A stretch of DNA of 59,638 bases from Tropicimonas isoalkanivorans (GTDB taxonomy: Bacteria > Pseudomonadota > Alphaproteobacteria > Rhodobacterales > Rhodobacteraceae): positions 1 to 59,638 of the forward strand of contig NZ_FOLG01000020.1 in assembly GCF_900112335.1 (NCBI RefSeq), written 5' to 3'. Both the position numbers and the translations under genes were made by a program. Below are positions 7,104 through 36,689 of the stretch, piece after piece (the stretch's first letter is position 1; each line of letters begins with the position of its first letter). Below the pieces are notes generated by a model that was given only the letters and a program-made list of their open reading frames with translations, was not told where the DNA came from and ran no database searches.

Positions 7104-7119
7104 TGCGTGTTCTCCTTGT

Positions 7120-9361: not shown

Positions 9362-9371
9362 AGGCCTGCGG

Positions 9372-11300: not shown

Positions 11301-11474
11301 GAACCGCCGGAGATGGGAAAATTTGGTGCCGAGGCGCCTAACTACTTGCAACCAAAAGAGATATTATTGATGCATTTTTAGTCGGTTCTAAAACACCGAG
11401 TGCGCGGGGTCCGGTAAGAAAAGACCGGTGTTACAAAACCTTACAGTTGGCTTTACGCTTTCCGCAGGCTGGCA

Positions 11475-11487
11475 TTTACAGTGTAAA
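11475..11487. promoter_or_regulatory. candidate upstream activator site (palindrome)
   Basis: TTTACAGTGTAAA is a perfect palindrome about an odd centre base, roughly 195 bp upstream of the -12 element, a typical distance for an enhancer bound by a sigma-54 activator. A further TTACAGT half-site lies near 11440, and a CCGGT/ACCGG inverted repeat at 11411-11428. No NtrC-type activator gene lies in the window, so the binding protein is unknown. The rest of the 11301-11631 stretch shows no gene. Confidence 0.45.
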
Positions 11488-11631
11488 GCCCTGTGAACAT
11501 GCGACGTGCTCAAATTTGGTCCGTCGCGATTGATCAGGGTGTTTGGTGCCCATTATTCACCAGCCGCCAAGACGCGCGGCATGTTGCTCGCAGGCCGGAA
11601 AGAGCGAGGCACTGCACGCTCAGTTGGTGAA

Positions 11632-19583: not shown

Positions 19584-20471
19584 GTGGACAGGGACAAGGC
19601 TGAACTTCGCTGGGGCATCGAGCAGCGGCTCGAGTTCATCGAGTTCCGCCTGTTCTGGGAGGGGCACGTCAATCGCATCGACGTGATGCAGCAGTTCGGC
19701 GTCTCGGTGAACCAGGCATCCTCGGACCTGAACCGCTACATCGCGCTGGCGCCGGACAACATGGTCTACGACAAGAGCGCGCGCACCTATGTCCGCGGGC
19801 CGGACTTCGATTGCAAGTTCCGCCCGCCAGACGCCGCGCACTACCTCGCCCAGCTTCGACTGGTTGCCGACGATGTGCTAGAGCGCGAAGAGTGCTGGAT
19901 CCCTGACCTACCGTCCTACGCCTCCGCACCAACGCCTGTGCGCGGCGTCGATCCGGTGACGCTCCGCTCGGTTGTCGGCGCCATACGTCGGTCCGAGGCG
20001 ATCGAGGTGAAGTACCAGTCCCTGTCGACCCCGGAGCCGCGCTGGCGCTGGATCGCTCCGCACGCCATCGGGTTCGACGGGTTCCGCTGGCATACGCGGG
20101 CGTTCTGTCTGACAGACGATTGCTTCAAGGACTTCCTGCTCTCACGGATCCTCGACATCCGCGGATCGCGGGAGAGCGCCACATCGGCCGACGACGACAG
20201 CGATTGGCATTCCGAGCTCACCCTGGAGGTCGGCCCGCACCCTGATCTCTCGGAGACGCAGGCCAAGGTCATCGCGCTCGACTATGGGATGCGAGGCGGC
20301 AAGGCGAAGATCAAGGTGAGGCGCGCGCTCCTCTACTACGCGCTCAGGCGGCTTGGGCTCGACACCGACCCGGCCGCGCGGCGCCCACAGGATCAGCAGA
20401 TTGTTCTTCTGAACCGTCAAGCAGTCCTTGGGATGAACGGTGCCGCCAGCAGTGCTCAGGAGCCTTCATGA
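19584..20471 (+). CDS. WYL-domain transcriptional regulator of the defence operon
   Basis: A 295-aa protein beginning with GTG at 19584, chosen because GGAGG lies 6 nt upstream. Residues about 5-75 form a winged-HTH (EFIEFRLFWEGHVNRIDVMQ, then FGVSVNQASSDLNRYI). Residues about 130-200 form the WYL domain (WRWIAPHAIGFDGFRWHTRA, FLLSRI). The C-terminal part resembles the WCX extension. This layout is that of BrxR/CapW-type regulators that repress defence operons and are thought to respond to phage-linked ligands. Its stop overlaps the helicase start (ATGA), so it is the first gene of the operon. That it represses this operon is inferred. Confidence 0.85.
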   Translation: MDRDKAELRWGIEQRLEFIEFRLFWEGHVNRIDVMQQFGVSVNQASSDLNRYIALAPDNMVYDKSARTYVRGPDFDCKFRPPDAAHYLAQLRLVADDVLEREECWIPDLPSYASAPTPVRGVDPVTLRSVVGAIRRSEAIEVKYQSLSTPEPRWRWIAPHAIGFDGFRWHTRAFCLTDDCFKDFLLSRILDIRGSRESATSADDDSDWHSELTLEVGPHPDLSETQAKVIALDYGMRGGKAKIKVRRALLYYALRRLGLDTDPAARRPQDQQIVLLNRQAVLGMNGAASSAQEPS

Positions 20472-23400
20472 GAGCATTTGAGTTCGATCACCACGTGATC
20501 AGTTCATACGAGCGTTTTTCCCGCTCTTTCAGCAGTATTCGCTCCGAAGATCTTCGGGCAGCGATTGATGCACAGTATGATGCCGGTCGGTTCTGGCCCG
20601 ATGCTCTCCTTTCCTTGAACCCCAGGTATCTTTCGGGTCCCAGCGTGGATGACCTGGTCGCTTCAGGTGATCTGGACGAGGGAACTGGAAAGGTCTTCCG
20701 GTTCGGCGAGAAACCTCTCCGACTCCATCGACACCAGGCGGAGTCGATCGCCAAGGCGAAATCCGGAAAGAGCTTTGTCGTCACGACAGGAACCGGCTCC
20801 GGCAAATCGTTGTGCTTCTTCGTGCCAGTTGTCGACGCCATCATTCGGTCCCTGCGTGCCGGCAAGCCTCGAACAACGCGCGCTATCATCGTCTATCCGA
20901 TGAATGCTCTGGCAAACAGCCAGATGAAGGAAATCGACAAATTCATCGGACAGTCAGGGCTTCCTGACGCCCTGAAGCCTGTTGTCAAACGCTACACGGG
21001 GCAAGAAAGCCAAGAGGAACGTCAACGGATCGCGGCCAATCCGCCAGATATCCTGCTCACGAACTACATGATGGCGGAGCTCCTGCTGACCCGCCAAGAC
21101 GACCTGGACGCCCAGGTGGTCAAGAACGCGACCGGTCTTGAATTCGTCATCCTCGACGAGCTGCACACCTATAGAGGGCGCCAAGGCGCGGATGTGGCGG
21201 TGCTCGTTCGGCGACTGCGCGACCGTTGCTCCCCTGACAAGGCTCCGATCTGCATAGGCACATCGGCGACGATGGCTTCAGAAGGCAACGAGGAAAGCCG
21301 AGCGGTCGCCGTGGCCAAAGTCGCGACAAGGCTCTTCGGCTCCGAGATCGGCCCGGATGCCGTAATAGATGAGTCCCTGCAACGGGCTACTGACGACACT
21401 ATCACTCTTGCGCAAGCGACCGCCGCACTGGCTGATGTGGTGCGAAAGCCTCTCCCGGCAGGCTTGGACGACGAGCAGCTCAGGAAGCATCCGCTCGCGG
21501 TATGGGCGGAGCTTGCGCTCGGACTCGATGACGGGCTGGAGCTGAAACGAAAGAAGCCCATCCCCTTCGAGGACGCCGTCAAACGGTTGGCCGAAGACAC
21601 TGGTGTCGACGCAGAGCATTGTCGGAAACAGCTCGAAGGTTTTCTGACGCTGGTAAGCCTCCCCGAATATCAGCGCGGTGGGACCGGGGACGGAGCGTTC
21701 CTCGCATTCAAATTGCACAGGTTCATTTCCGGCGCGGGTGAGGTCTTCACCACGCTTACGGACAAGCCACGCACCGTCCTGTTCGAGGGTCAGCTCGAGG
21801 ATCCCGATGCTCCGGGCAACCGGCTTTACCCAACACGCTTCTGCAGAAACTGCGGACACGAATACCACGTCGTCACCAAGAACGAGGATGACGGCCACAT
21901 CAGGTTTCTCCCCCGCAATATCGACGATACGCCGCTGGAAGCCGAAGACGACGATGATGTGGCGGGATATCTCTGCCCGGCGCCAGACAACGATCCTGAT
22001 TTCGCCTTCGATGGCGACTTGAACGGCTACCCGGAGAGCTGGCTCGAAGAGCGCAATGGCATCGAACGGCTGCGGTCCTATCGCAAGAAGCGCGCGCCCA
22101 TCTCCTATGTCGTGACGCCAGACGGCCGGCATGGCGCTGGTGGGAGAGAGTTCTGGTTCATCCCCGGAAAGTTTGCATTCTGCCTCTGCTGCAAGGACGA
22201 GCCCAACCAGGGGATGCGTGAGCGCAGTAAGCTCGCGGGCCTCTCTGGCGAAGGGAGGAGCTCCGCGACGACCCTTCTCGTGTCCAGCGCTCTCGAGTGG
22301 ATGAACAAGCCGACGAGCGGCGTTCCAAAGACCAAGCGGAAACTGCTTGGGTTCACGGACAATCGGCAAGACGCGGCGCTTCAATCCGGCCACTTCAACG
22401 ACTTTCTGTTCGTGAGCCTTCTGCGTGGGGCCATTCTGCGGGCCATAATTGCAGCAGGGCCCGAGGGCCTGACCGAGGATGAGTTTGGTCTAAGCGTCGT
22501 CAAGGCGCTCGGCTTCACGTCTGCAAACAAAGAGGCACGTGCCCACTGGATGCTCGATCCATCGGCTGGCGCCGTCATTCGGGAAGACGCTCAACGTGCG
22601 CTTGCAAAGGTCCTGGCTCACCGAGTTTGGACTGACCTCCGCAGGGGTTGGCGCTACACGAACCCCAGCCTCTCCGTTCTGAAGCTTCTAGATGTTGAGT
22701 TCGTCGGCGTCGCCGACATGGCATCAGACCGGGAAAGGCTGATGACAGTCCTGCCCGAACTCGGCGATCAATCCGAAGAGCAGAGAGCCATCCTGCTAGA
22801 GACCGTGCTGGGCGCAATGCTCGAAGGCCTTGCTGTCAACACGGAAGCCTTGGACCTGACTGTCCTGGACGGCGTCGCGCAGAAATCACGGTCGCTGTTG
22901 CGCGCTCCGTGGGCGATAGATGCCAAGGAGAACCCGCGCGGGCGGTCGTCGCTGCTTCTGCGCGCACCAGGCAAGAACGCCGTGGGCCTTCGTGAGGAAC
23001 AGACACTCCTTCGCGCCGGTCACAACTCCCGCATTGCGCGGCTCATCAACAAAAAGAGCGTGCTGGGCACGAAGCTCGGGCGGGACGATTACCTCGCGTT
23101 CTTCTCGCGCCTGCTTGAGCTATTCGCCGATGAGGGCTTGATTGTCCCGGTCGAGCTCGACGCTGATCTCGTAGGCTGGCGGCTGACGCCCTCTGCCGTC
23201 CGCCTTGTCCCCGGGCCCGCGCTCTCCGACGAGAGCGAACGGGGAAACCGATACTTCCACGATCTGTACGCATCGATTGCGGACGATCTGGCATCGGGTC
23301 ACAGCGCCTATTGGGGGCTGGAGGGGCGCGAGCACACCGCGCAGGTTTCCCAAAGACAGCGTGAATGGCGCGAATGGCGGTTCAGGTATGAAGACGACGA

Positions 23401-25648
23401 CCTCGAAAACCTCAATACCTCGGAGTATCGGACCGAAATCAAGACCACCGGGGAATCCGACCAGTTCCTTCCAGCGCTGTTCTGCTCGCCGACCATGGAG
23501 CTTGGGGTCGACATCTCGGCGCTCAATGCCGTCTATCTAAGGAACGTCCCGCCGACGCCCGCCAACTACGCGCAGCGTGCTGGCCGCTCGGGCCGGTCTG
23601 GCCAGGCTGCGGTTGTGGTGACGTACTGCGCATCGGGCTCTCCACACGACCAGTACTTCTTCGAGCGTCGCAATGACATGGTGGCGGGTGTCGTGCGCCC
23701 GCCTGCGCTGGACATCACGAACGAAGAACTGGTGCGTTCGCACCTGCATGCGGTCTGGCTTGCTGAGAGCCGACTGGCACTCAAACCCGACATCCCGGAT
23801 ATCCTCGACCTCGGTGGCGATCGCTATCCGCTGAAGCAAGAGATCCTGACCACCATTTCCAAGGCCGATCTCGTCTCTCGTGCGCGCGGACCAATGCAGC
23901 GGGTGCTCGATCAGATTTTGGCCGCTGATCAAGGAACGCTGCCTGTCTGGATGGGGGATCCGGAAGAGTTCGTTCTTCATGTGGCAATGAACGCTCCCAA
24001 GGAGTTCGATCGAGCGTTTGACCGTTGGCGCGAGCTCTACAATTCTGCTCGCACTCAGTTGGCCGAAGCCAACGCCCGATCAGAGATAACAGGGCTCTCG
24101 GCTGTCGACCGCCGCAAGATCAAGGCCGCACAGATGCAGGCCAGCGACCAGATTGCGATCCTCGAACAAGGAAAGGCATCGAACGGATCAGACTTCTATT
24201 CGTACCGCTACCTCGCGACGGAGGGCTTCCTACCCGGCTACAATTTCCCGCGCCTGCCGCTCTATGCATTCGTGCCTGGCGAGGGAAAAACCGGCTCGTT
24301 CCTCTCTCGCGCGCGCTTTCTTGCGATATCGGAATTTGGACCGCGCAGTCTGATCTACCACGAAGGTCGCGCCTACCGGGTGATGAAGGCAAAGCTCCCT
24401 CCAGAGGTTCGCGAAGGCGACGGATCGGAACTCGCGACCAAGGACATCTACATTTGCGCAAACTGCGGAGCCTGCCACGAAGGAGAGGTAGAGCGCTGCC
24501 ATGGCTGCGACGCACACATGGCCGGAGAGGTGCCCATCAAGCGCACGCTCCGCATCGACAATGTGGAAGCCGCCCCCACTGAACGCATCACCGCGAACGA
24601 TGAAGAGCGCGTGCGACAGGGCTTCGACATCCAGACCGTATTTTCGTGGCCGAAGAAGGACGATCAGTTGCAGGTCACGAACGCGGAATTCAAATGCGGC
24701 GAGACTTCTCTGCTCGCACTGCAATACGCCAACAGCGCCGAGATTAGTCGTCTGAACAAGGGTCTGAAGCGCCGAAAGGACCAGACGGTTTTCGGCTTCA
24801 ATATCGATCCCCGTACAGGCTACTGGGCAAAATCTGAGGACGAGGATGCGGAGACCGACGCTCCGCCCGATGTAGTCAAGCCAGTCCGGATCGTGCCGAT
24901 CGTAAGGGACCGCAAGAACGCGCTTCTGTTCCGCTTCAAGAAGCCGGAAAACTTTGACCCAAGCACGATCACCACCGTTCAACATGCGCTCTTGCGGGGG
25001 ATCGAGGTCGTCTACCAGCTTGAAGAAGGCGAGATCCTGAGTGAGCCGCTTCCTGCTCGCGATAACCGCCGCGCCATTCTTGCCTACGAAGCCACGGAGG
25101 GAGGGGCCGGTGTTCTTACGCGCCTGATGGATAATCCAGAAGCGATCAGCGAGGTCGCTCGGACAGCACTTGGGCTCATGCACTTCGAAAACATCGACGC
25201 GGCGGTCGCAAGCGGAGACGCAAGCCTGCTGACCGAGAAGGCAGACGATGCCTGCGTCAGAGGGTGCTACCGCTGCCTGTTGTCGTACTTCAACCAGCCG
25301 GACCATGAGCAGATTGACCGCGGCAGCGAGGAGGTTACCCAGCTATTGGTTGACCTTGCGCGCGGTCGCACGGTCCTTGAGCGGCGGGCCGCGCCAGACG
25401 GCGCGTCGTCACCGTGGCTGAAGGCGTTTGAGGCTGCTGGTCTCCCGCAGGTCGACACCATTGGCCTCAGCTTTGCCGGTGCGGAAGCGGAATTCGTATG
25501 GCGCGGGCACTTTGTCGCCGCAACGAGCCAGGCGGTTTCCGCAGACATGGCCAATGAAGCAGCCAACAAAGGCTGGGAATTGATCGCTCTTCCAGCATCG
25601 GCCGAGGCTGGCGTCCCCAAACAGTTGCTTGATCTATTGAAAGGGTAA
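20468..25648 (+). CDS. giant superfamily-2 helicase with C-terminal DUF1998 (DrmA/DrmB-like fusion)
   Basis: A 1726-aa protein. Walker A is TTGTGSGKS (about residue 103), the DExH box is ILDELHTYRGRQG (about 228), and motif VI is YAQRAGRSGRSG (about 1035). The roughly 800-residue gap between them holds an insertion with Cys pairs (CRNCGHEYH near 458, FCLCCKDEPN near 570). A zinc-ribbon-like segment ICANCGACHEGEVERC is near 1330, and the DUF1998 end has CVRGCYRCLLSYFNQPDHEQ near 1600. DISARM splits these functions between DrmA (helicase) and DrmB (DUF1998); here both lie in one chain, as also in Druantia DruE and MrfA-type helicases. Start has AGGAG upstream. Role as the DNA-translocating core of the defence complex is inferred. 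Confidence 0.88.
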   Translation: MRAFEFDHHVISSYERFSRSFSSIRSEDLRAAIDAQYDAGRFWPDALLSLNPRYLSGPSVDDLVASGDLDEGTGKVFRFGEKPLRLHRHQAESIAKAKSGKSFVVTTGTGSGKSLCFFVPVVDAIIRSLRAGKPRTTRAIIVYPMNALANSQMKEIDKFIGQSGLPDALKPVVKRYTGQESQEERQRIAANPPDILLTNYMMAELLLTRQDDLDAQVVKNATGLEFVILDELHTYRGRQGADVAVLVRRLRDRCSPDKAPICIGTSATMASEGNEESRAVAVAKVATRLFGSEIGPDAVIDESLQRATDDTITLAQATAALADVVRKPLPAGLDDEQLRKHPLAVWAELALGLDDGLELKRKKPIPFEDAVKRLAEDTGVDAEHCRKQLEGFLTLVSLPEYQRGGTGDGAFLAFKLHRFISGAGEVFTTLTDKPRTVLFEGQLEDPDAPGNRLYPTRFCRNCGHEYHVVTKNEDDGHIRFLPRNIDDTPLEAEDDDDVAGYLCPAPDNDPDFAFDGDLNGYPESWLEERNGIERLRSYRKKRAPISYVVTPDGRHGAGGREFWFIPGKFAFCLCCKDEPNQGMRERSKLAGLSGEGRSSATTLLVSSALEWMNKPTSGVPKTKRKLLGFTDNRQDAALQSGHFNDFLFVSLLRGAILRAIIAAGPEGLTEDEFGLSVVKALGFTSANKEARAHWMLDPSAGAVIREDAQRALAKVLAHRVWTDLRRGWRYTNPSLSVLKLLDVEFVGVADMASDRERLMTVLPELGDQSEEQRAILLETVLGAMLEGLAVNTEALDLTVLDGVAQKSRSLLRAPWAIDAKENPRGRSSLLLRAPGKNAVGLREEQTLLRAGHNSRIARLINKKSVLGTKLGRDDYLAFFSRLLELFADEGLIVPVELDADLVGWRLTPSAVRLVPGPALSDESERGNRYFHDLYASIADDLASGHSAYWGLEGREHTAQVSQRQREWREWRFRYEDDDLENLNTSEYRTEIKTTGESDQFLPALFCSPTMELGVDISALNAVYLRNVPPTPANYAQRAGRSGRSGQAAVVVTYCASGSPHDQYFFERRNDMVAGVVRPPALDITNEELVRSHLHAVWLAESRLALKPDIPDILDLGGDRYPLKQEILTTISKADLVSRARGPMQRVLDQILAADQGTLPVWMGDPEEFVLHVAMNAPKEFDRAFDRWRELYNSARTQLAEANARSEITGLSAVDRRKIKAAQMQASDQIAILEQGKASNGSDFYSYRYLATEGFLPGYNFPRLPLYAFVPGEGKTGSFLSRARFLAISEFGPRSLIYHEGRAYRVMKAKLPPEVREGDGSELATKDIYICANCGACHEGEVERCHGCDAHMAGEVPIKRTLRIDNVEAAPTERITANDEERVRQGFDIQTVFSWPKKDDQLQVTNAEFKCGETSLLALQYANSAEISRLNKGLKRRKDQTVFGFNIDPRTGYWAKSEDEDAETDAPPDVVKPVRIVPIVRDRKNALLFRFKKPENFDPSTITTVQHALLRGIEVVYQLEEGEILSEPLPARDNRRAILAYEATEGGAGVLTRLMDNPEAISEVARTALGLMHFENIDAAVASGDASLLTEKADDACVRGCYRCLLSYFNQPDHEQIDRGSEEVTQLLVDLARGRTVLERRAAPDGASSPWLKAFEAAGLPQVDTIGLSFAGAEAEFVWRGHFVAATSQAVSADMANEAANKGWELIALPASAEAGVPKQLLDLLKG

Positions 25649-25653
25649 TCCTT

Positions 25654-28416
25654 GTGCTGAGTTTCTCACCTGGCGATTTGGTTCGGGCCCGAGGTCGCGA
25701 ATGGGTGGCGCTCCCAGCGCCACGCGCAGGGATTCTTGCGCTTCGACCGCTGTCGGGAAACGAGAACGACATCGTTGTCCTGGACCCCACACTGGAAATC
25801 GCATCGGTCGAAGCAGCACGGTTCGATCTCCCAGAAGATGCGCGCACTACCGTGCAAGCCAAGGCTGCGCTCTTGGCGGACGCACTGCGGCTCACACTTC
25901 GTCGCGGCGCCGGGCCTTTCCGATCTGCCGCGCAACTCGCCTTTGAACCACGGACGTATCAGCTTGTGCCGCTTCTCATGGCGCTCAGGCTCCAAGTGCC
26001 ACGTCTGCTGATCGCGGACGATGTCGGTATTGGCAAGACCATCGAAGCGGGCTTGATACTGCGGGAGTTCATGGACCGTGGCGAAGTCGATGCATTCTCG
26101 GTTCTTTGCCCACCCCACCTCGTGGATCAGTGGATCATCGAGCTCAAGGATCGGTTCGGAATCGACGCAGTCGCCGTGACTTCCGGCACAGCGGCACGCC
26201 TCGAGCGAAATCTGCCGCTCGCTCAGACCCTTTTCGACGCTTACCCCCACACAGTTGTCAGCCTCGATTACATCAAGGCCGAGAAGCGACGGGAGGGGTT
26301 CGCGCGGGCCTGTCCCGACTTCGTGATCGTTGATGAAGCCCACGCTTGTGTGGGCACCCACAAAGGCAAACAGCAGCGTTTCGAGTTGCTACAGGGACTC
26401 GCGAAGGACGCGGAGCGCCGGTTCATCATGCTCACGGCCACACCGCATTCGGGCGACGAGGAAGCATTTGCTAGACTGCTCTCACTGATCGACCAGGACT
26501 TCGCCACGCTGGACTTCGACAGCGCGAGATACCGAGAGCGCCTCGCGAGGCACTTTGTCCAGCGTCGTCGCGTGGACCTCGTCGAGGGCGATTGGCACGA
26601 GGACCGATCATTCCCGAAACACGAAACCACAGAGCACGCCTATCGGCTCTCGCCCGAGCACCTGGCGTTCCAGGAAGCCGTTCTGGACTATTGCCTCGAG
26701 GTGGTCTCGAAAGCGGGAGAGCAAAAGAGGGATCAGCGCCTGGCGTTCTGGGGCACCCTCGCTCTCATGCGCTGCGTCGGTTCCTCGCCCGCGGCGGCGT
26801 TGAGTGCGCTGAGAAATCGTGCCGCCAACGAAGCAGAGCGTCTCGAACCGCAGATCTATGACGAAGACGGCGACGACGAAGATGCCGTGGACATCGAACC
26901 GAGCACGGCATTCTCAGATGATCCCGCACTCCGTGCGCTCATCGATCAGGCCGGCGATCTTGTTGAAGCGAAAGATCCAAAACTCGATGCCCTCGTCGGT
27001 GCGCTCCAACCGCTGATCAAGAGTGGCGCCAACCCGGTCGTCTTCTGCCGGTACTTGGCCACCGCCGAACACGTGAAGTCAGGCCTGCGGAGAGCGTTCC
27101 CAAAGCTAATCATCGAGTCGGTAACTGGAGAGCTGACCCCGGACGAACGCCGCGATCGTGTTGCCGAGATGGCGCCGGAAGATGCGGAAGAAGGTGCGCA
27201 GAGAATCCTGGTGGCGACCGATTGCCTCTCGGAAGGCATCAACCTGCAGCAGCTTTTTGACACGGTCGTACACTACGATCTCTCTTGGAATCCGACCCGA
27301 CATCAGCAGCGTGAAGGACGGGTGGACCGCTTCGGCCAGCCGGCCGAGCTGGTTCGCTCGATCATGATGTTCTCGCCGGACAGCGCCATCGATGGTGCCG
27401 TCCTCGATGTGATCCTGCGAAAAGCGGAGGAAATCAGGAAGGCAACAGGGGTGACGGTTCCTCTGCCTGACGAGCGCGGGCCGGTCACAGACGCCCTGAT
27501 GTCCGCAATGATGCTCCGCCGTGGTGGGCACAAGCAGCTCACGCTCGACCTTCGCCTCGAGGATGGCACGAAGGTCATGGAAGCGCGTTGGCGCGATGCC
27601 AGCGAGAACGAGAAGAAATCGCGTGCCAGGTTCGCCCAGAACGCGATGAAACCCGCTGAGGTCGCGCCGGAGTGGGACAAGGTCAGAAGCCTGCTCGGCT
27701 CGCCCGAGGACACGAAGCTTTTCGTCGAGCGCGCGATGTCACGGTTCGGTGTGCCGCTTGAGAGAAAGCGGAACGTCTATGTCGCTCACGTTCACGCGCT
27801 CCAGCAGACCCTGAAGGAGAAGCTTGAACAGCGCGGCCTCGAGAAATCCGTCAGGCTCGCCACCGCAGAGCCTGCTCCCTCTGGAACGTCCCTCCTAACG
27901 AGAACCCATCCGCTGACGGCGTCGCTCGCCGAAAGCCTTGTCGAGGCGTCGTTGGATCAGGAGGCACTTCCAGATCTTGGCATTGGCCGCGTCGGTGCAT
28001 GGCCGACAACAGCGGTGTCGGCGATGACACGCGTCGCCCTCGTGCGCGTCCGGTACAAGCTCACGATCCACGCCAGAAAGGAGCGGCTCCTTCTGGCCGA
28101 AGAAGCAGCGCTGGTTGCCCTCCAGGGCAGAGGCGTTGTGGCGACCGGCGAAGACGTCCGCAACATGCTCAGCACGCCGGCCACAGCCGACCTCGCGGCG
28201 ATCGCACGAGATCGGATGATCAATGCCGCCAAGGCGGACCTGCCCGGTTTGCTCACTGGACCCTTGGCGGACTTCGTCAAGAAGAGGGCTGCGGAACTCG
28301 TCGAGGATCACGCTCGTCTGCGTGCCGCGGCCGGATCCATCTCGCGCGTCAGCGTCGAAGCGGTCCTTCCGCCCGACGTGATCGGCTTGTTCGTCCTCAT
28401 GCCGGGCGAGGTGTGA
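25654..28416 (+). CDS. SNF2-family helicase/ATPase, DrmD-like
   Basis: A 920-aa protein starting with GTG 5 bp after the helicase stop. Motifs: LIADDVGIGKTIEAGLI (Walker A, about 119), VIVDEAHACVG (DEAH, about 226), LTATPHSGDEEAF (motif III, about 262), VFCRYLATAEHV (start of helicase C, about 462) and QQREGRVDRFGQ (motif VI, about 550). The C-terminal 300 residues are helical and charged. The GIGKT-DEAH-TATPHSG set is that of the SNF2-like ATPases found as DrmD in class 1 DISARM and in RapA-like proteins. It probably remodels or translocates on DNA with the partner helicase and methylase. Confidence 0.88.
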   Translation: MLSFSPGDLVRARGREWVALPAPRAGILALRPLSGNENDIVVLDPTLEIASVEAARFDLPEDARTTVQAKAALLADALRLTLRRGAGPFRSAAQLAFEPRTYQLVPLLMALRLQVPRLLIADDVGIGKTIEAGLILREFMDRGEVDAFSVLCPPHLVDQWIIELKDRFGIDAVAVTSGTAARLERNLPLAQTLFDAYPHTVVSLDYIKAEKRREGFARACPDFVIVDEAHACVGTHKGKQQRFELLQGLAKDAERRFIMLTATPHSGDEEAFARLLSLIDQDFATLDFDSARYRERLARHFVQRRRVDLVEGDWHEDRSFPKHETTEHAYRLSPEHLAFQEAVLDYCLEVVSKAGEQKRDQRLAFWGTLALMRCVGSSPAAALSALRNRAANEAERLEPQIYDEDGDDEDAVDIEPSTAFSDDPALRALIDQAGDLVEAKDPKLDALVGALQPLIKSGANPVVFCRYLATAEHVKSGLRRAFPKLIIESVTGELTPDERRDRVAEMAPEDAEEGAQRILVATDCLSEGINLQQLFDTVVHYDLSWNPTRHQQREGRVDRFGQPAELVRSIMMFSPDSAIDGAVLDVILRKAEEIRKATGVTVPLPDERGPVTDALMSAMMLRRGGHKQLTLDLRLEDGTKVMEARWRDASENEKKSRARFAQNAMKPAEVAPEWDKVRSLLGSPEDTKLFVERAMSRFGVPLERKRNVYVAHVHALQQTLKEKLEQRGLEKSVRLATAEPAPSGTSLLTRTHPLTASLAESLVEASLDQEALPDLGIGRVGAWPTTAVSAMTRVALVRVRYKLTIHARKERLLLAEEAALVALQGRGVVATGEDVRNMLSTPATADLAAIARDRMINAAKADLPGLLTGPLADFVKKRAAELVEDHARLRAAAGSISRVSVEAVLPPDVIGLFVLMPGEV

Positions 28417-28418
28417 TC

Positions 28419-31400
28419 ATGGCGCGCAAACCGATTTCCGACATGTCCGCATGGCCCTCGCTCAGCCTCGAGGGCAACCTGATCGCGCCCGCGATGATCG
28501 CCAGGATTGACCAGCGGGACGCACCGGAACAGGCGCCGGAGGACTACGCTGTCCGCAAGGGCCTCACGATCCGCGAGGAAATTTCGACGGCATTCCGGGT
28601 CGGCCAATCTCATTTCGATGCCTTCGCGAAGCTCGAGGCTCCTTCCCAGGACGCCACCCGGCGTTTCATCGTCGGCCTCTTCAAGGAGACTTTCGGGTTC
28701 CACGACCTGGCGCCAGCCGCTGCACCGCTTGCCATGATCGCCAGCGGACGGGTTCCAGTGGTCGTGGTGCCGCCGAGCGAGACGCTGGACCGCCGCAGCC
28801 CGACCCTTTCCGTCGATCGCTCCCGCTCGCCCGCCTTCGCGCTTCAGGACTACCTCAACGACTCCGAAGAAGCGCTATGGGGCATCGTCACCAACGGCAC
28901 CCACCTTCGCCTCATGCGGGACAACGCGTCCCTGACGCGCCCCGCCTACATCGAAGCCGACCTCGCCCAGATCTTCTCGACCGAGGACATCGCGTCCTTT
29001 GCCGCGCTCTGGCTCATCATCCACCGGTCACGCTTCGGCGCCGCTGACACCCCGGCCACCGACTGCCCGCTCGAGCGGTGGCGCGAGGCTGGCTCGCGTG
29101 AGGGCGAGGCCGCGCGCGACCGCCTGGCCGAGCAGGTCCAGATCGCGCTCAAGGTGCTGGGTTCAGGCTTCCTCGAGGCCAACCCTGACCTCGCGGCGAA
29201 ACTGAAATCTGGCGAGGTGAACCTCACCGTCTGGTTCAACGAGCTCCTCCGCCTCGTCTACCGGCTGATCTTCCTGATGGTTGCCGAGGACCGGAACCTC
29301 CTCCACCCGGCGAAGTCGAAGGCCGAGGCTCGGGCGCTCTACGCCGAGGGCTACAGCCTCGCGGCGCTGCGCAAGCAGTGCTACCGCGCCGCCACCTGGG
29401 ACAAGCACCACGACCGCTACGAGGGCATCAAGATCGTCTTCCGCGCGCTCGCCCACGGGGAGGAGGCGCTCGCCCTCCCGGCGCTCGGCGGCCTCTTCGC
29501 CGAGGACAGACTGCCCCACCTCGAAACCGCCCGCCTGCGCAACCGCGCCTTCATGGAGGCGCTCTACCGACTCTCCTGGCTTGCCGACAAGACCGGCATG
29601 GTCCCGGTCAACTGGCGCGCGATGGAGACCGAGGAACTGGGCTCGGTCTACGAATCCCTCCTCGAACTCCAGCCGCAGCTGGGCGACGACGGCAAGACGC
29701 TCGTCTTTGCGTCAGAGGCGGCCGAGCAGAAGGGTAACCAGCGCAAGACCACCGGCTCCTACTACACGCCTGACAGTCTGGTTCAGGCGCTGCTCGACAC
29801 CGCGCTCGACCCCGTGCTCGACAAGACTGAGGCCGAGGCTGACGATCCCGCCAAGGCGCTGCTAAAACTCTCGGTCATCGACCCCGCCTGCGGCTCGGGC
29901 CACTTCCTGCTGGCCGCCGCCCGCCGCATCGCCACGCGGCTCGCCCGCATCCGGGCCGAGGGCACGCCCTCGCTCGCCGATTTCCGCCATGCGCTGCGCG
30001 ATGTCGCGCGTTGCTGCATCCACGGGGTGGACCGAAACCCGATGGCGGTAGAGCTGACCAAGGTCGCGCTCTGGATCGAGACGGTGGACCCCGGCCTTCC
30101 GCTTGGTTTTTTCGACGCGCAGATTCGCTGTGGCGACGCACTTCTGGGGGTGTTCGACCTGAAGGTGCTGGAGGACGGCATCCCCGACGCCGCCTACAAG
30201 CCGCTCACAGGTGACGACAAGGACATCGCAAGCATCTACAGGAAGATCAACGCCGCGGCGAAATCTGGACAGGGCGGGTTCGACTTCGGGACCGGGCTCA
30301 ACAAACTACCAGAGACCAAGCCGTTCGCTGTCGACTTTTCAGGCTTCCGCGATTTGCCCGAAGACACGTTGGACGAAATCGGCGCCAAAGCTGCGCGCTT
30401 CAAGGAGCTCCGCAAGAAGCAGGACTTTGTCCGTGCAAAGGCGGCGTGCGACCTTTTCATTGCAGCATTCCTGCTACCCAAGACTGGCAACGCCCCAACA
30501 GGTCCGTTCGAGCGAACCGTCCCGACGACCGAAGAGATCTGGATGGCGCTCAACCAAGGTAAAATCCGGAATGCAATGCTCGATGCTCCAAAAGCTGCTC
30601 GTGAGGCTCGGGCCTTTCACTGGCCCCTAGAGTTTCCCGATATCATGCAGCGTGGAGGCTTCGACGTCGTCCTTGGTAACCCGCCATGGGAGCGCGTCAA
30701 ACTTCAGGAGCAAGAGTTCTTTGCCCTTCGCGACGCCGAAATCGCCACGGCGAAGAATGCCGCGGCCCGCAAGCGACTCATCGACCAGCTGGACGAGAGG
30801 AATCCGCGCCTTGCGAAGGAATGGCAGGATGCGTTGCGGACGGCCGCGACCGAAAGCCATTTCATGCGGGAATCCGGCCGCTTCCCTCGCGGCGGTGTCG
30901 GCGACGTGAACACCTATGCAGTATTCACCGATCATTTCTGGCAGCTCACGAAGGCCTCCGGGTACGCGGGCCTCATTATCCCCACCGGGCTTGTCAGCGG
31001 TTTTACTTACCGCGCTTTTCTCGGAGAGCTTCTAAGTACAAAGTCTCTCGTTGCGTTCTATGGTTTCGAGAACGAGGATCTGATCTTCCCGCATATCACC
31101 AACAAGGTGAAGTTTGGTCTGCTTACGATGGCTGGACGTGCTGTCGGCATTGAGAAGCCGTGGTTCACGGCGCATATCCGCCAGCCGTCGGAGATCGCCG
31201 ATCCGGAAAAGCGCTACTCGCTTACTGTCGATGAGATCAGGGCCATCAATCCGAACACCCTGAACCTCCCGGCCTTCCGTTGGTCGCGCGACGCCAAAGT
31301 CACGGCGGCGATCCACATGGCGGCGCCGATCCTTATTGAGAAGGATGGGAATACAGTCACGGCGAACCCCTGGAAAGCGTCCATGGCAACGCTATTCCAT

Positions 31401-32894
31401 ATGTCCGGCGCATCAGAGCACTTCCTTGATCACGCAGAAATAAATCCGAGAATTGCCGAACGCGATGGTGCGTTGGCCGTTCTACGCGATGGTCGACGAG
31501 TATATCCTCTCTATGAGGGGAAAATGTACTGGCACTTCGATCACCGCTACGGAACCTACGAAGCCCAAACTGAAAAGCAGGCAAATAAAGGTGTTCTGCC
31601 TCGCGTGACGAAGCAGCAGCATAATGACCCAGAATACAGGGTCGAACCTAGATACTGGGTTGATGCGAAGCTGACCGACATCGCCTTGGCCGAAGAAGCC
31701 GCGCGACCATGGTTCTTCTCGTGGAGGGATGTTGGGATTTCGGAAAGAACTTTGATCGGCACGGTTATTCCCAAGACGGCGACTGGCGATAAGGCGCCAG
31801 TCCTATTTGCAGACCAATCACCGCTTCTCTTCTCAGCGCTATCAGCGACTCTCGGCTCTCTTGTCGTCGACTATGCTGTTCGCCAGCGTGCGATGAACAT
31901 CAAATTCTTCGTATTGGAACAGGCACCGGTCTTGGTACCGAGCTTTTTTGACCATGAATTGCCATGGCTCGGTTTGACGCCCGCTAACTGGTTGTCCCCG
32001 CGTATCCTTGAGCTCTGTTATACAAATGTGGAACTTACGGCATTCGCGCGAGACCTAGGGTTTGAGGGTGCTCCATTCACATGGTCCGAAGATCGACGCC
32101 CGACTCTACAAGCAGAAATCGACGCAGCCATGCTGCACTTTTACGGGTTGAACCGCGAACAATCGGAATGGGTGCTCAACTCCTTCACAGTGCTCCGGAA
32201 GTACGAGGAGCGTGACCACAACGAGTTCCGCACCAAACGGCTGGTTCTGACGGCCTACGACGCTATGGCAGCGGCCAAGGCATCAGGCACTGCATACCGG
32301 ACGCCTCTGTCCCCACCGCCTGCAGATATCAGCCTCTGCCATGGCGCGGAGGTCTCCAAGTTCGCTCAGGTCCAGCGACCGCTTGAGGTTACGCCGCTTG
32401 AGCAACTTCCGGACGCCGCATGGGCGCGCGCGGCGCCGTCACGACAGCATGATCCGTCGGCCGCACTCGCCGCAATTCTGAAGTCGCTGAATGGCCCGAC
32501 GCCGATCCGCACCATTCGTCTGACCGCCGCGATCATGCTGGAGCCCCACCTCTTGACGCCGATCCTTTCACCTGAGGATCAGACCCAATGGCGGCGGCTG
32601 GTGGGCCAAGAGGCAGAGCCCCGCTCTGGAAATGTCGTCGGCTTCTCGGGGCGAACCACGCCGGGATGGAATGCCGCCATCACCAACCATCGAGGCAACG
32701 GTCGACTGCTAGAAGACATCGCGGCGAGAACGTGGACTCCAGGCACAGGTCTGGAAGCTTTTGACATTTCGGGCTGGCCAGAAGGGCGCGCAAGGTTTGT
32801 GCTCGACGCGCTGCGAAACCTGGACATCGATGCAACCGTGAACGCTGCTCCTGCCGAAGTCCGAGACTGGATCGCAAATGCCGCAGCAGGATGA
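28419..32894 (+). CDS. large N6-adenine DNA methyltransferase (DrmMI/Eco57I-like)
   Basis: A 1491-aa protein; ATG at 28419 with GAGGTG upstream, 2 bp after the SNF2 gene. The AdoMet site is DPACGSGHFLLAAARR (about 487) and the catalytic motif IV is VVLGNPPWERV (about 753). TTGSYYTPDSLVQALLD precedes motif I, as in Eco57I, PglX and DrmMI enzymes. The first 430 residues and the last 600 are likely DNA-recognition and partner-binding parts. No nuclease motif (PD-ExK) is evident near the N-terminus, so I read it as a methylase, not a self-contained type IIG enzyme. It should mark host DNA so that the operon's effectors spare it (inference). The last 17 bp overlap the next gene. Confidence 0.9.
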   Translation: MARKPISDMSAWPSLSLEGNLIAPAMIARIDQRDAPEQAPEDYAVRKGLTIREEISTAFRVGQSHFDAFAKLEAPSQDATRRFIVGLFKETFGFHDLAPAAAPLAMIASGRVPVVVVPPSETLDRRSPTLSVDRSRSPAFALQDYLNDSEEALWGIVTNGTHLRLMRDNASLTRPAYIEADLAQIFSTEDIASFAALWLIIHRSRFGAADTPATDCPLERWREAGSREGEAARDRLAEQVQIALKVLGSGFLEANPDLAAKLKSGEVNLTVWFNELLRLVYRLIFLMVAEDRNLLHPAKSKAEARALYAEGYSLAALRKQCYRAATWDKHHDRYEGIKIVFRALAHGEEALALPALGGLFAEDRLPHLETARLRNRAFMEALYRLSWLADKTGMVPVNWRAMETEELGSVYESLLELQPQLGDDGKTLVFASEAAEQKGNQRKTTGSYYTPDSLVQALLDTALDPVLDKTEAEADDPAKALLKLSVIDPACGSGHFLLAAARRIATRLARIRAEGTPSLADFRHALRDVARCCIHGVDRNPMAVELTKVALWIETVDPGLPLGFFDAQIRCGDALLGVFDLKVLEDGIPDAAYKPLTGDDKDIASIYRKINAAAKSGQGGFDFGTGLNKLPETKPFAVDFSGFRDLPEDTLDEIGAKAARFKELRKKQDFVRAKAACDLFIAAFLLPKTGNAPTGPFERTVPTTEEIWMALNQGKIRNAMLDAPKAAREARAFHWPLEFPDIMQRGGFDVVLGNPPWERVKLQEQEFFALRDAEIATAKNAAARKRLIDQLDERNPRLAKEWQDALRTAATESHFMRESGRFPRGGVGDVNTYAVFTDHFWQLTKASGYAGLIIPTGLVSGFTYRAFLGELLSTKSLVAFYGFENEDLIFPHITNKVKFGLLTMAGRAVGIEKPWFTAHIRQPSEIADPEKRYSLTVDEIRAINPNTLNLPAFRWSRDAKVTAAIHMAAPILIEKDGNTVTANPWKASMATLFHMSGASEHFLDHAEINPRIAERDGALAVLRDGRRVYPLYEGKMYWHFDHRYGTYEAQTEKQANKGVLPRVTKQQHNDPEYRVEPRYWVDAKLTDIALAEEAARPWFFSWRDVGISERTLIGTVIPKTATGDKAPVLFADQSPLLFSALSATLGSLVVDYAVRQRAMNIKFFVLEQAPVLVPSFFDHELPWLGLTPANWLSPRILELCYTNVELTAFARDLGFEGAPFTWSEDRRPTLQAEIDAAMLHFYGLNREQSEWVLNSFTVLRKYEERDHNEFRTKRLVLTAYDAMAAAKASGTAYRTPLSPPPADISLCHGAEVSKFAQVQRPLEVTPLEQLPDAAWARAAPSRQHDPSAALAAILKSLNGPTPIRTIRLTAAIMLEPHLLTPILSPEDQTQWRRLVGQEAEPRSGNVVGFSGRTTPGWNAAITNHRGNGRLLEDIAARTWTPGTGLEAFDISGWPEGRARFVLDALRNLDIDATVNAAPAEVRDWIANAAAG

Positions 32895-34854
32895 TCTCTT
32901 CCCGGTTCCGCCACTAAGCGTTGAAGTTCCGAAAAGCCTAACGGAGCCGAGGCTCTGGGTACGACGGCTCAAGATCTGGAAGGAGCCGGGCGGCGAGGTC
33001 ATTCGGGACATCGAGTTACGGCCAGGGCTCAACATCATCTGGTCGCCAGACGGAGATGACGATCCCGATGGGGGTGGCCGGGCCATCGGCCATGGCAGCG
33101 GAAAGACGCTGTTCTGCCGTTTGCTGCGCTATTGCCTCGGCGAAGTCCGCTTCGCAGACGAGGTCCAGCGCGATGCCATTTCCAGCGCTTTTCTGAATGG
33201 CGTCGTCGGGGCTGAGGTGATGCTTGACGGAGTGTGCTGGGCGGTAGCGAGGCCACTCGGCATCGGTCGCAAGCACTTCGCTGTTGAAGCCGGCAGCCTC
33301 GACGTCGTTGCGAAGATGGAGGGAACGGCTACGGGCATAGAGCCGCTGATCGACGCCATCGAAGCCGCGATCCTCGGCGATGGCACCTCTCGGTTGGCTA
33401 GGCTCTCAGCTGGTCAGCGGGCTTGGCCGATCGCCCTCGCGTGGGCGGCACGCGATCAGGAATGCCGTTTCGACGACGTCCTGGATTGGCGTTCATCGGC
33501 ATCAGGATCGGATGCGCCGCAGCCGGCAAGTGGTGATGCGAAAGGACCTCGATTGCTCGCGATGCGGGCGTTCTTGAACGCAATCACGGATGAAGAGCAG
33601 GCCGCACGCCGCGGAGAGCAGGATCTGGCAAGCCAACTTGATCAAGCAAAACGGCAACGGTCGTTTCTCGAATGGGATCAAGCGCGGCGCGTGGAGCGCC
33701 TCGTTCGCGATCTCGGTCTTAGCGATACATCCCTGCCTGATATGCCGCTTCTCCTGGACTCCTTGAAGTCGGCCGCGAAGGAGAGACTTGCCGCCGTGAC
33801 AAGACTGCCATCGGGGGTTGGCGCTGAACTTGATGAGGCCAGGCGTACTTCACAAGATGCGCGTACTGCACTGCGCAATATTGAACTGAGGGCCGCTGAA
33901 CTCGACGTGAGATTGCCTCTAGAAGAAAAGCTACTCGCACAGATGAGCAGTGAAATTCCGGGACTCTCTGCAGCCGCTCAGTCCGCGCTTAGTCAGGTCT
34001 GTCCCATCTGCGAGGTGCCAATCGACACAGCGCTCGCGGAAGGCTGCAAGCTGTCTCACAGACTACCCGACCAAGCACAGTGTCGTGCCCGGCTGGAGGC
34101 GAAACGAGAGGAAATACATACTCAGAAAAACGAGATTGCGGGCATTAAGGATGAAATTGGCGCCCTGAAGCCCGCAATCTCTCTAGCGAGCCAAAATGCT
34201 CGACAGGCAGAGGATCGGGTGGATCGCCTCGAAAAGGCTGCTGACGCTCGAAACACAAGCTGGCGAATTGCCACTCGAGGTGTTGAGGATGTTCAGCGAA
34301 CGGCAGAAATCGTCGATGAGGTCGCGCGTGCGGAAGCTGCTATAAGAAAACTGGAAGACGCGTTGCAGGGCACCCGCGAACAGCTTCGAGGCTTCGAGGA
34401 CAAGCAGGCAAAGGCAATCGGCGCTGTATCCCAGAAGTTCTCAGCGATCATTCGGCGTTTGCTCGGTGACGATGCCAAGGGCTTTGTGCGTCTGACTGGT
34501 AAAGGTCTTGAGATTGCTGTTGAAGCCGGGGGCGATAGGCGAACAGCTGCCATTCAGTCTTTAAAAGTGCTCGCCTTCGATCTGGCTTGTCTCTGTTTAA
34601 GCGTTGAGGGCCGCACGCGGATCCCCGCCTTTCTGATCCACGACAGTCCGCGCGAGGCCGATTTGGGACAAACGATCTATGATGAGCATTTTCGGCTTTT
34701 ACGAGAACTCGAGGAAGAACTGGCGGGTGGGACCTTCCAGTATCTGATTACAACGACAACAAGGCCACCTCATGACGTCAACAGAGGGCCTTGGCGACGT
34801 GCGGTATTGCGCGGTGCGCCTGGCCGCGAACGATTGTTGGCCTGTGACCTATGA
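32878..34854 (+). CDS. Rad50/SMC-like ATPase with CxxC hook, defence operon
   Basis: A 658-aa ATPase overlapping the methylase by 17 bp. The Walker A is IGHGSGKTLFCRLLRYCLG (about 70-85), with a signature-like RLARLSAGQRAWPIALAWA (about 175). Two long coiled-coil stretches flank CPICEVPIDTALAEGC (about 374), which resembles the zinc hook of Rad50. Near the C-terminus PAFLIHDSPREADLG is the Walker B region and QYLITTTTRPP the following strand. The layout is like small SMC/Rad50 relatives that partner nucleases or methylases in defence operons. Binding DNA ends or tethering the complex is a plausible role. Not an ABC transporter: no membrane partner, and a long coiled coil. Confidence 0.82.
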   Translation: MPQQDDLFPVPPLSVEVPKSLTEPRLWVRRLKIWKEPGGEVIRDIELRPGLNIIWSPDGDDDPDGGGRAIGHGSGKTLFCRLLRYCLGEVRFADEVQRDAISSAFLNGVVGAEVMLDGVCWAVARPLGIGRKHFAVEAGSLDVVAKMEGTATGIEPLIDAIEAAILGDGTSRLARLSAGQRAWPIALAWAARDQECRFDDVLDWRSSASGSDAPQPASGDAKGPRLLAMRAFLNAITDEEQAARRGEQDLASQLDQAKRQRSFLEWDQARRVERLVRDLGLSDTSLPDMPLLLDSLKSAAKERLAAVTRLPSGVGAELDEARRTSQDARTALRNIELRAAELDVRLPLEEKLLAQMSSEIPGLSAAAQSALSQVCPICEVPIDTALAEGCKLSHRLPDQAQCRARLEAKREEIHTQKNEIAGIKDEIGALKPAISLASQNARQAEDRVDRLEKAADARNTSWRIATRGVEDVQRTAEIVDEVARAEAAIRKLEDALQGTREQLRGFEDKQAKAIGAVSQKFSAIIRRLLGDDAKGFVRLTGKGLEIAVEAGGDRRTAAIQSLKVLAFDLACLCLSVEGRTRIPAFLIHDSPREADLGQTIYDEHFRLLRELEEELAGGTFQYLITTTTRPPHDVNRGPWRRAVLRGAPGRERLLACDL

Positions 34855-34867
34855 GGATCAATGTGCA

Positions 34868-35632
34868 ATGATCCTAGCGCCGCAGCCCTTCGTCATCCGC
34901 CAGGAATGCGACAAGGTCGCGTTTCAGAATGGCTTTCGCCGCAAGTTGGACGAAAATGAGGGATGGGCCAGCTTTAGCTCGACCACGGTGCCCGGCACGA
35001 TCCATCTCGCTGCAGGCGGCGCACGGGGCCCGTGGTTTCTCGCCTTGGATCACACGGGCGTCATTGAAGAGCTTGATATGCCCGCCGTGGACATGCCGGG
35101 TCCAGGTCATGCCCGCTACGCATTCGAGACGCTCGGCCAAGTCTACATCGTGTTACCGCGGATCTACCAACTGGCGGCGAGCCTGCCTGATGCGCCGCTT
35201 CGGGAGTTCGAGACGAAGATCAAGGACCTTCCGAAAACGACGGAGGCCGAACGCCTCGTCGTTCAGCGCATCGGCCAGGACATCTTCCGCGTGGGCCTGA
35301 TCGAGTATTGGCAGGGGCGATGCCCGATGACCGGCATTACCGATACAGCGCTGCTGCGCGCCTCGCACATTATTCCATGGAAAGATTGCGCGAGCGATGC
35401 AGAACGCCTCGACGTCCATAACGGCCTCCTGCTCTCGGCCTTATGGGATGCTGCCTTTGATCGCGGGCTTGTAACGTTCGATGACGAGGGCCAGCCGCAA
35501 TTTTCACCCTTCCTGAGCGACAGCGCTCGCGCCGAATTTCGCTGGCAGGAACCGATCCTGTTGACCGACAAGCATCGGAGGCAACTGACCTGGCACCGCA
35601 CCAACGTCTTCGTTAGACAAGGAGGAGCTTAA
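34868..35632 (+). CDS. HNH endonuclease, last gene of the defence operon
   Basis: A 254-aa protein. The C-terminal nuclease domain shows GRCPMTGITDTALLRASHII with PW after it, then HNGLLLSALWDAAFDRGLVT, the HNH_2-type pattern in which His (ASHI), Asn (HNGLL) and Asp (AFD) form the metal site. Residues 1-130 are beta-rich and may read the target. I place the start at 34868 (MILAPQPFVI), 13 bp after the ATPase stop with GAGG upstream; an in-frame ATG at 34772 would give 286 aa but overlap the ATPase by 83 bp. It is the likely DNA-cutting effector. It ends 9 bp from the convergent darG gene. Confidence 0.85.
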   Translation: MILAPQPFVIRQECDKVAFQNGFRRKLDENEGWASFSSTTVPGTIHLAAGGARGPWFLALDHTGVIEELDMPAVDMPGPGHARYAFETLGQVYIVLPRIYQLAASLPDAPLREFETKIKDLPKTTEAERLVVQRIGQDIFRVGLIEYWQGRCPMTGITDTALLRASHIIPWKDCASDAERLDVHNGLLLSALWDAAFDRGLVTFDDEGQPQFSPFLSDSARAEFRWQEPILLTDKHRRQLTWHRTNVFVRQGGA

Positions 35633-35641
35633 GAGACTGGT

Positions 35642-36676
35642 TCAGGCGCTTGCGAGCCACCCCTTGTTCTGCAAGTTCTGGAGAGCGATACCAATCTGGC
35701 GCGGGGAGAAACGCTTCTTGCGTTCGTTCCACGCATAAACCTTTTCGATTGCATCCTCTGCGCTAACAGCCTTTTCCCGCGTCGTCACCCAGTGCACGGT
35801 TGCGAGAAGTTCTAGGCCAAATGGTGTCTCGAACCCCTCTACAAGCTCCGCCACACGATCGAAGCGCGCGGCTGTATCTTCGTTATCCGACAAGAAGGAC
35901 TCCGCGTCCTTCACCGCGCCGGGAACCAGTTCAAGCTGCTTTTCGGGCGCATCGCCACCATCGGCGTATCCCGACACGAGATGCCCCTCGACCGCGCGAA
36001 GGACGTGCCGCAGATTCTCGGCGTAAGGGCCATACGGCGCCTTCGCATACTTGAGGCGGAGTGGCTCGCCTGCTTCCTGCATGAAATACATCAGTTTATG
36101 CACTTCAAGTAGCGTCACGAACGGGTCCATTAGCCCGCCAAGATAGCGATTCATTAGAACCACCAGCGCTGCTCGTCCGGGGCTCATCGTTGGAACTTCC
36201 CGCGACTTCGTTATGACCGGCGCACTATTTGGCTCAAAGACAATGATCTCCAAGTCCGGCAGGTCGCGCAGCGTGGCTTCGATCCGGGGACGAACGTCCT
36301 CCCAGTTCAGGCCACCTAGACCGCTCCCAAGCGGCGGAATGGCGATCGATCTGATGCCACGTTGCCGAACCTCTTCGGCAAGGGCGACAAGCCCGGAATC
36401 GATATCCTCCATCCGACTTTTCCCGCGCCAATGCCGCTTCGTCGGGAAATTGATGATGTACTTGGGGTTTGTCAGTGTATGGCTCTCGAAGACGAACATC
36501 TTGCCCGGCTGAACTTCATCGCGCTTACAGGCCGCTTCGTAAGCCTTGAAATTCGCCGGAAATGCATTCTTGAACTGGAGTGCGATGCCACGGCCCATGA
36601 TTCCGACGCAGTTCACCGTGTTGACGATCGCCTCTGCGTCCGCCTGCAAAATGTCACCTGTCACATATCTGATCAT
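35642..36676 (-). CDS. darG: DarG-type antitoxin: macrodomain DNA ADP-ribosyl glycohydrolase
   Basis: A 344-aa protein. Residues 1-155 form a macrodomain: YVTGDILQADAEAIVNTVNC, GIMGRGIALQFK, NFPTKRHWRGKS (with the Lys expected at the active site) and IPPLGSGLGGLNW. Residues about 165-344 (HKLMYFMQEAGEPLRLKYAK, YGPYAENL) match the C-terminal domain of DarG, which also blocks the toxin by direct binding. It removes ADP-ribose that DarT places on thymidine in single-stranded DNA. The ATG at 36676 is preferred, since GGGGAGG lies 6 nt upstream; the ATG at 36682 touches the ribosome site. Follows darT by 13 bp. Confidence 0.92.
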   Translation of the reverse strand: MIRYVTGDILQADAEAIVNTVNCVGIMGRGIALQFKNAFPANFKAYEAACKRDEVQPGKMFVFESHTLTNPKYIINFPTKRHWRGKSRMEDIDSGLVALAEEVRQRGIRSIAIPPLGSGLGGLNWEDVRPRIEATLRDLPDLEIIVFEPNSAPVITKSREVPTMSPGRAALVVLMNRYLGGLMDPFVTLLEVHKLMYFMQEAGEPLRLKYAKAPYGPYAENLRHVLRAVEGHLVSGYADGGDAPEKQLELVPGAVKDAESFLSDNEDTAARFDRVAELVEGFETPFGLELLATVHWVTTREKAVSAEDAIEKVYAWNERKKRFSPRQIGIALQNLQNKGWLASA

Positions 36677-36689
36677 GATCATCCTCCCC

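Follow-up and report, generated by a model that had tools for sequence, protein, structure and literature searches.

Organization of the operon

A stretch of 59,638 nucleotides from Tropicimonas isoalkanivorans (assembly GCF_900112335.1, contig NZ_FOLG01000020.1, positions 1–59,638 of the forward strand; hereafter the window) carries a six-gene operon at 19584–35632 whose core matches, by composition and gene order, the system named ARMADA type I. All six genes lie on the + strand, and neighbours either overlap by 4–17 bp or are separated by 2–13 bp, figures that assume the ATG at 34868 as the start of the HNH gene. This start was chosen because it fits the homologues and because residues 1–25 of the longer reading frame have a predicted local distance difference test score (pLDDT) below 50 in the model. 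The coordinates and domain scans thus bear out the original prediction, made from the sequence alone, of a single-strand defence-type operon with helicases and a methylase and gaps of 13 bp or less. The operon comprises the following features, the methylase (28419–32894, 1491 aa from the ATG at 28419) being given as core and tail:

19584–20471, +: WYL-domain regulator (Pfam WYL, 1.3e-9)
20468–25648, +: YprA-family DEAD helicase of ARMADA I type, 1726 aa (DEAD, Helicase_C, MrfA Zn-binding; partial PADLOC DruE matches, best 9.7e-81)
25400–25645 (approximate limits), +: eroded Vsr-nuclease remnant at the helicase C-terminus (motif residues gone)
25654–28416, +: RapA/BrxHII-like SNF2 helicase, 920 aa (SNF2, Helicase_C; PADLOC PDLC02853, labelled DpdE, 2.2e-198 over the full length)
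28419–32273, +: PglX-like N6-adenine methylase core, residues 1–1285 (Eco57I, N6_Mtase; DPACGSG and NPPW motifs)
32274–32894, +: methylase C-terminal tail, type A, candidate SMC dock with a winged-helix-like model (SMC co-occurrence, covariation, copy on a Type III Res, model)
32878–34854, +: LmuB-like SMC/Rad50 ATPase, 658 aa (PADLOC LmuB 9.1e-20, partial; motifs)
34868–35632 (longest reading frame from 34772), +: HNH_2 nuclease, 254 aa from the likely start (Pfam HNH_2 3.2e-11; relatives; VcaM4I match)

Relatives were gathered from genome samples, plasmid records and one profile scan of genome contigs, with a 13-sequence methylase alignment as the query and the best 80 of 554 relatives kept; they form a non-random sample. 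The classification set consisted of 113 loci and the window, with one hidden Markov model (HMM) per gene, and 112 of these had a usable methylase. Seven viral methylase loci served as a hold-out set.

Among the best 80 of the 554 relatives, a RapA helicase lies within 1.5 kb upstream of the methylase in 74 loci, a YprA helicase is found within the locus in 74, and both are present in 71; several of the loci without both are truncated at contig ends. The combination of YprA, RapA, methylase, SMC and HNH was observed in 18 of 112 loci, the window counted, and its carriers include Rhizobium, Mesorhizobium, Agrobacterium, Ancylobacter, Paracoccus denitrificans DSM 413 and one metagenome-assembled genome of Deltaproteobacteria. 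HMM matches to the WYL gene occur in 9 of 114 sequences, and the regulator is either facultative or often located beyond the stretch read.

Relationship to known systems

ARMADA type I was named in a 2025 preprint (Bell et al., PMC12458937), and its arrangement of a neighbouring YprA helicase, BrxHII-like helicase and PglX-like methylase, with YprA usually first, is found in the window. In the cyanobacterial relatives L100, L110 and L115 (Nostoc, Synechocystis) the order is reversed, in agreement with the main text of the preprint. In the Nocardioides locus L066, an AAA gene and a McrC gene come after the locus. According to the same text, ARMADA helicases typically end in a predicted active Vsr nuclease, which is absent from the window and from the 48-row clade described below; since the wording there is "typically", the missing Vsr marks a variant and not an exclusion. 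The window therefore differs from ARMADA type I in its deleted Vsr site, an HNH nuclease in trans, and an SMC gene with a methylase tail. The main text of the preprint describes no SMC or HNH partner: the terms SMC and Rad50 do not appear in it, and HNH and WYL are each found a single time, both among the references.

The window shares with DISARM a YprA-type helicase, an SNF2 helicase and an adenine methylase. A full match was rejected, as the DrmA- and DrmB-like parts are fused, no phospholipase D protein is present in the operon, and the profile matches are partial. On these points the original prediction was right: a single helicase joins the DrmA- and DrmB-like parts, DrmC is absent from the operon, and the set does not fit classical DISARM. 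Its further proposal of a distinct DISARM subtype did not hold, since the core has already been described as ARMADA type I in the main text of PMC12458937.

Several other systems were compared and set aside. In ARMADA type II, YprA follows the BrxHII-methylase pair and precedes a GajB-like helicase fused to RelE, whereas the window has YprA first and SMC and HNH last. The helicase lies on the same branch as that of Druantia, and in PADLOC the YprA protein scores best against DruE, but these matches are partial, no DruA-D, DruF-H or DruM was found among the matches, and a methylase and RapA are present instead. For Dpd, no match to dpdA-C (7-deazapurine modification) was obtained among the seven proteins scanned, and only the SNF2 protein matches a DpdE-labelled profile. 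Hma, as outlined in PMC8565338, combines a helicase, a 5-methylcytosine methylase and an ATPase encoded by three genes, while the methylase of the window is of the N6-adenine type.

The HNH gene and the lost Vsr nuclease

In the window helicase, the PDFxY, VDGPHH and RD residues of the Vsr domain are absent, and the deletion spans the second motif. A FastTree phylogeny was built from 95 YprA helicase cores with the C-terminus excluded, and Vsr and HNH states were assigned in all but 17 of these rows. The Vsr deletion was observed in 49 of the 95 rows, namely one 48-row clade (100% local support) and the actinobacterial L145. Within this clade, an HNH gene follows the methylase within 5 kb in 45 of 48 rows, and L093, with its HNH at 8.2 kb (66% identical to an Acinetobacter HNH), brings the total to 46. 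The two rows lacking HNH look like damaged operons: in L060 an IS21 element lies directly after the methylase, and in L079 the methylase match ends at residue 1017. Conversely, HNH is missing from 27 of the 29 rows that have an intact Vsr and a known outcome, the exceptions being L134 and L135.

Covariation was calculated on 15 loci with all parts, from which L044 and L072 were excluded because their SMC is split in two pieces; an exploratory run retained the best SMC piece of each. HNH identity tracks YprA (r 0.95) and RapA (0.96), followed by the methylase core (0.77) and the SMC (0.41). The correlation of HNH with YprA stays at 0.94 when SMC is controlled for (p 0.001), while that of HNH with SMC falls to −0.22 when YprA is controlled for. 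In a wider set of 46 HNH loci, HNH correlates with YprA at 0.89 and with the methylase at 0.81, with partial values of 0.67 and 0.28, both exceeding permutation. This pattern places the HNH gene in the core, where the helicase tracks it most closely, and the HNH nuclease probably replaces the fused Vsr in trans.

Several observations weigh against this replacement. L134 and L135 carry HNH together with an intact Vsr; they belong to a four-row sister clade, a position that fits a gain of HNH preceding the loss of Vsr. The switch from Vsr to HNH amounts to almost a single event, with 2 changes on the tree, which leaves a test of independent pairs powerless. L145 has its Vsr deleted and no HNH, eight more actinobacterial rows have an altered Vsr motif and no HNH, and L110 has neither the C-terminus nor HNH; Vsr decay is thus possible without this HNH. 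The partial r of 0.28 also shows that the HNH retains some link to the methylase. In the viral hold-out set, only L197 and L198 have a full helicase C-terminus, and both are Vsr-intact and HNH-free, so that just one side of the Vsr-HNH link was tested.

The HNH may alternatively be a modification-dependent nuclease that sits in one ARMADA lineage by chance of descent and is no replacement cutter. It is indeed confined to one clade, and the closest solved relative of its HNH part is VcaM4I (6yex), which is presented in PMC7897488 as a modification-dependent EVE-HNH enzyme. The HNH model (mean pLDDT 89.9) has VcaM4I as its best fold match (E 3.3e-9), followed by TagI (E 0.026), and the sequence profile matches the catalytic domain of VcaM4I at E 1.9e-34. 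The sequence match is limited to the HNH part, and the N-terminal domain of the window protein gave no clear match in the fold search. Against such an accident of descent, the HNH has been retained while the clade diverged deeply, the presence of HNH alongside Vsr in the sister clade fits gain followed by loss, and the HNH covaries specifically with the helicase. We consider this alternative fairly unlikely.

The SMC and HNH genes probably do not form a unit

The original prediction had SMC and HNH replacing DrmC together. This did not hold, as SMC is absent from 31 of the 52 loci in which HNH lies within 5 kb, and six SMC loci, read for at least 4 kb downstream, lack HNH; in a seventh (L093) it lies 8.2 kb off. 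The related idea of one Septu- or Lamassu-like effector pair joined to ARMADA could draw on the LmuB profile matches of the window SMC and on the pairing of an ATPase with an HNH nuclease in Septu, a known design. The loci with only one of the two genes, together with the covariation between HNH and SMC that vanishes once YprA is controlled for, led us to reject a single effector pair, to which we assign very little probability.

The ATPase and, in its full length, the HNH were found mainly with the operon; the original prediction was to be abandoned if homologues of the two occurred mostly apart from the helicase and methylase. The SMC was matched in 9 of 398 genomes: eight of the 13 genomes with a strong methylase match (>500 bits), and a ninth that has no more than a fragment, next to remnants of the helicase and HNH. 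Any HNH match was obtained in 41 of 369 genomes and a full-length one in six. Four of these are ARMADA loci, the fifth is a remnant (G089), and the sixth is a copy at a contig edge (G614) that adjoins a 29-residue match to the methylase end.

Two remnants were described separately. On plasmid pBEN of Paracoccus versutus (L034, 17794–22964), the last 73 methylase residues are followed by SMC, HNH and a DarG-like gene, with approximately 86% DNA identity to the window; the remnant lies beside conjugation genes, and the ARMADA core is missing. The second (L169, 7854–8933, in G089) contains a RapA fragment (94% identical over 63 residues), a fragment of the SMC end and a full HNH.

The SMC ATPase and the methylase tail

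The window SMC possesses a Walker A motif (GHGSGKT) near 33088, a CPIC hook near 34000 and the motif HDSPRE near 34639. The last of these we take to be Walker B, with a Ser at the position expected for the catalytic Glu, and HD[SC]PRE is kept in 14 of 14 aligned SMC sequences. In loci with an SMC gene, the methylase extends 161–208 residues past its core, or 676 residues in two loci with a differing C-terminal half; without SMC the extension is at most 88 residues, except in L057, L062, L089, L112, L125 and L128. Among the 112 loci, 31 have a long tail and SMC, 62 a short tail and no SMC, three a long tail and no SMC, and none a short tail with SMC, the other 16 being left unassigned for SMC state. 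On well-supported branches of the helicase tree, 12 independent SMC contrasts were available, and the tail agrees in a mean of 11.9 of them (median p 0.0005).

Two tail types were distinguished, A in 21 loci, the window included, and B in 10. The identity of tail A tracks that of the SMC (0.95) and not that of its own methylase core (0.37), while for type B the values are 0.94 and 0.76, respectively. The SMC is hence a separate add-on, tied to the methylase tail and independent of HNH. L042 and L091 (the latter from Paracoccus denitrificans DSM 413) have near-identical helicases, but L042 lacks the tail, and a uracil-DNA glycosylase (UDG)-like gene replaces SMC between methylase and HNH; this contrast points to a very recent exchange.

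The model of tail A has a winged-helix-like core and a mean pLDDT of 70.1, with block means of 81–92 for residues 81–130 and 151–210. The fold search ranked LmuC chains second and third (9uxh_D, 9ny5_C), ScpB fifth and MukE twelfth, all with E above 1 and amid many MarR-type winged helices, which offers a hint only. According to a Lamassu review (PMC10586767), the C-terminal domains of LmuA may act as docking stations, LmuC is the component in the middle, and the Walker B of LmuB has Gln in place of Glu. With Lamassu and ABC-3C systems the window shares a short SMC/Rad50-like ATPase of LmuB type (the profile match being partial), a zinc hook in type A members, an altered Walker B and an adjacent partner domain. 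It differs from them in that no LmuA or LmuC gene was matched and the candidate partner domain is fused to the methylase or to Res. Judged by this likeness, the tail and SMC pair looks analogous to the Lamassu arrangement, and the methylase tail may occupy the role of LmuC.

Not all results favour a tail that docks the SMC. No homology was detected between tails A and B (hhalign probability 1%), and the fold search with tail A returned no significant match. L062, L089 and L128 have a long methylase end and no SMC, and in the viral loci L196 and L198 the long tails belong to neither type and come without an SMC. As the tail and SMC genes are adjacent, linkage alone could inflate their correlation. 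By sequence, tail A gave no match among solved structures and no detectable similarity to the protein of 165 residues that partners the nearest SMC outside ARMADA (Priestia, L195), and the SMC profile returned mainly coiled coils from the PDB.

Other long methylase ends were noted. L112, L125, L128, L196 and L198 carry tails that are neither A nor B, with no SMC where the downstream region is readable; those of L112 and L125 appear S24/LexA-like by eye, and the methylase may accept fusions at its C-terminus in general. L039 and L040, on Burkholderiales plasmids, combine a far-diverged, Vsr-intact ARMADA core and a different methylase C-terminal half with tail A and SMC, without HNH.

Tail and SMC genes on Type III systems

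The same pairing was observed in two Type III restriction-modification systems, from which the window system differs in lacking Mod and Res. On the viral contig L192, SNF2, DUF4391 and Mod are accompanied by a Res of 1237 aa. The C-terminus of this Res, at residues 1056–1220, matches tail A (E 2.1e-36), and a type A SMC comes next. In genome G549, from the phylum of the window, locus L168 encodes Mod and a Res of 1271 aa that bears tail B at residues 1094–1247 (E 3.8e-23), with a type B SMC coming after it; this genome also holds an ARMADA locus, L050, with tail B and SMC. Neither Res matches the opposite tail type. The Type III SMCs nest within ARMADA SMCs of the matching type, one with L088 (support 97) and one with L050 (support 93). 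These two type-matched cases indicate that the cassette moved at least twice, in one direction or the other. The SMC had no match in the phage collection; a viral scan with the tail gave no match, and one with a mixed SMC alignment returned only two contigs that were already known.

These copies also bear on whether tail and SMC travel together by adjacency alone, without protein contact. The two genes share 17 bp in the window and lie side by side in relatives, as this explanation would have it. On the other hand, inserting an SMC gene needs no in-frame tail on the methylase, and for both types the tail recurs on a Type III Res that is accompanied by the cognate SMC; adjacency alone is accordingly a rather improbable account. 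The portable cassette probably consists of a docking domain and a Lamassu-like DNA sensor. Whether tail and SMC constitute a general-purpose plug-in moved between unrelated systems, while ARMADA swapped its fused Vsr for an HNH in trans, is in our judgement evenly balanced.

The slot between methylase and HNH, and the surrounding region

In other loci, the position between methylase and HNH is occupied by UDG-like (weak), UvrD/GajB-like, PtuA, AbiLi-like, NsnB/HEC-03-like, HD, IrrE-like, Schlafen or DprA genes, or is empty, and in some loci GmrSD sits after SMC. This slot is a small hotspot of defence genes. The presence of GmrSD, UvrD, PtuA, AbiLi-like and other defence-type genes in this stretch would also suit a simpler view, in which SMC and HNH are unrelated autonomous defence genes within an ordinary ARMADA I operon. 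However, 46 of the 48 operons without Vsr have retained HNH, which covaries with the helicase despite the exchanged stretch between them, and SMC never occurs without the methylase tail; we regard this view as quite unlikely.

Directly downstream of the operon and convergent with it, a DarTG pair, made up of the macro-domain protein DarG and the ADP-ribosyltransferase DarT, is encoded at 35642–37325 on the − strand. Past this pair, near 38000, the GC content rises from approximately 0.57–0.62 to 0.67–0.73, a possible island edge. Upstream of the defence region, positions 2017–12933 on the − strand contain an operon of the phenol/methane-hydroxylase type that includes genes for a reductase, a chaperonin, a zinc dehydrogenase and a sigma-54 factor.

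Proposed mechanism and implications

With confidence slightly better than even, we interpret the operon as ARMADA type I of an HNH-bearing lineage with an SMC add-on, operating through an HNH that stands in for Vsr and a tail-docked SMC. In the predicted defence function, the methylase would mark host DNA, and the two helicases would load onto unmarked or replicating foreign DNA and travel along it. Other ARMADA systems are credited with cutting through the Vsr domain of their YprA helicase; because the fused Vsr site is gone here, the separate HNH would be the cutter, partnered with the YprA helicase. The Lamassu-like SMC ATPase would dock on the winged-helix-like methylase tail, independently of HNH, and may add a step of sensing DNA structure or DNA ends and of holding the DNA. 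The tail and SMC form a cassette moving between systems.

The ARMADA core is known, and neither the exchange of Vsr for HNH nor the tail and SMC cassette was found in the literature searched. That literature, which excluded most subscription papers and the supplements of the ARMADA preprint, likewise yielded no SMC partner of ARMADA or Type III systems, and the tail and SMC module is possibly new.

In a 2026 review (PMC12904381), BREX, DISARM, ARMADA, MADS and Druantia are said to restrict by unknown mechanisms. A clade whose predicted cutter has seemingly shifted from a fused domain to a gene of its own offers a handle on how DISARM-family systems destroy DNA. The tail and SMC cassette would show that SMC sensing can be attached to different restriction enzymes, joining Lamassu-type sensing with restriction-modification, and would allow an SMC partner to be predicted from a short C-terminal tail.

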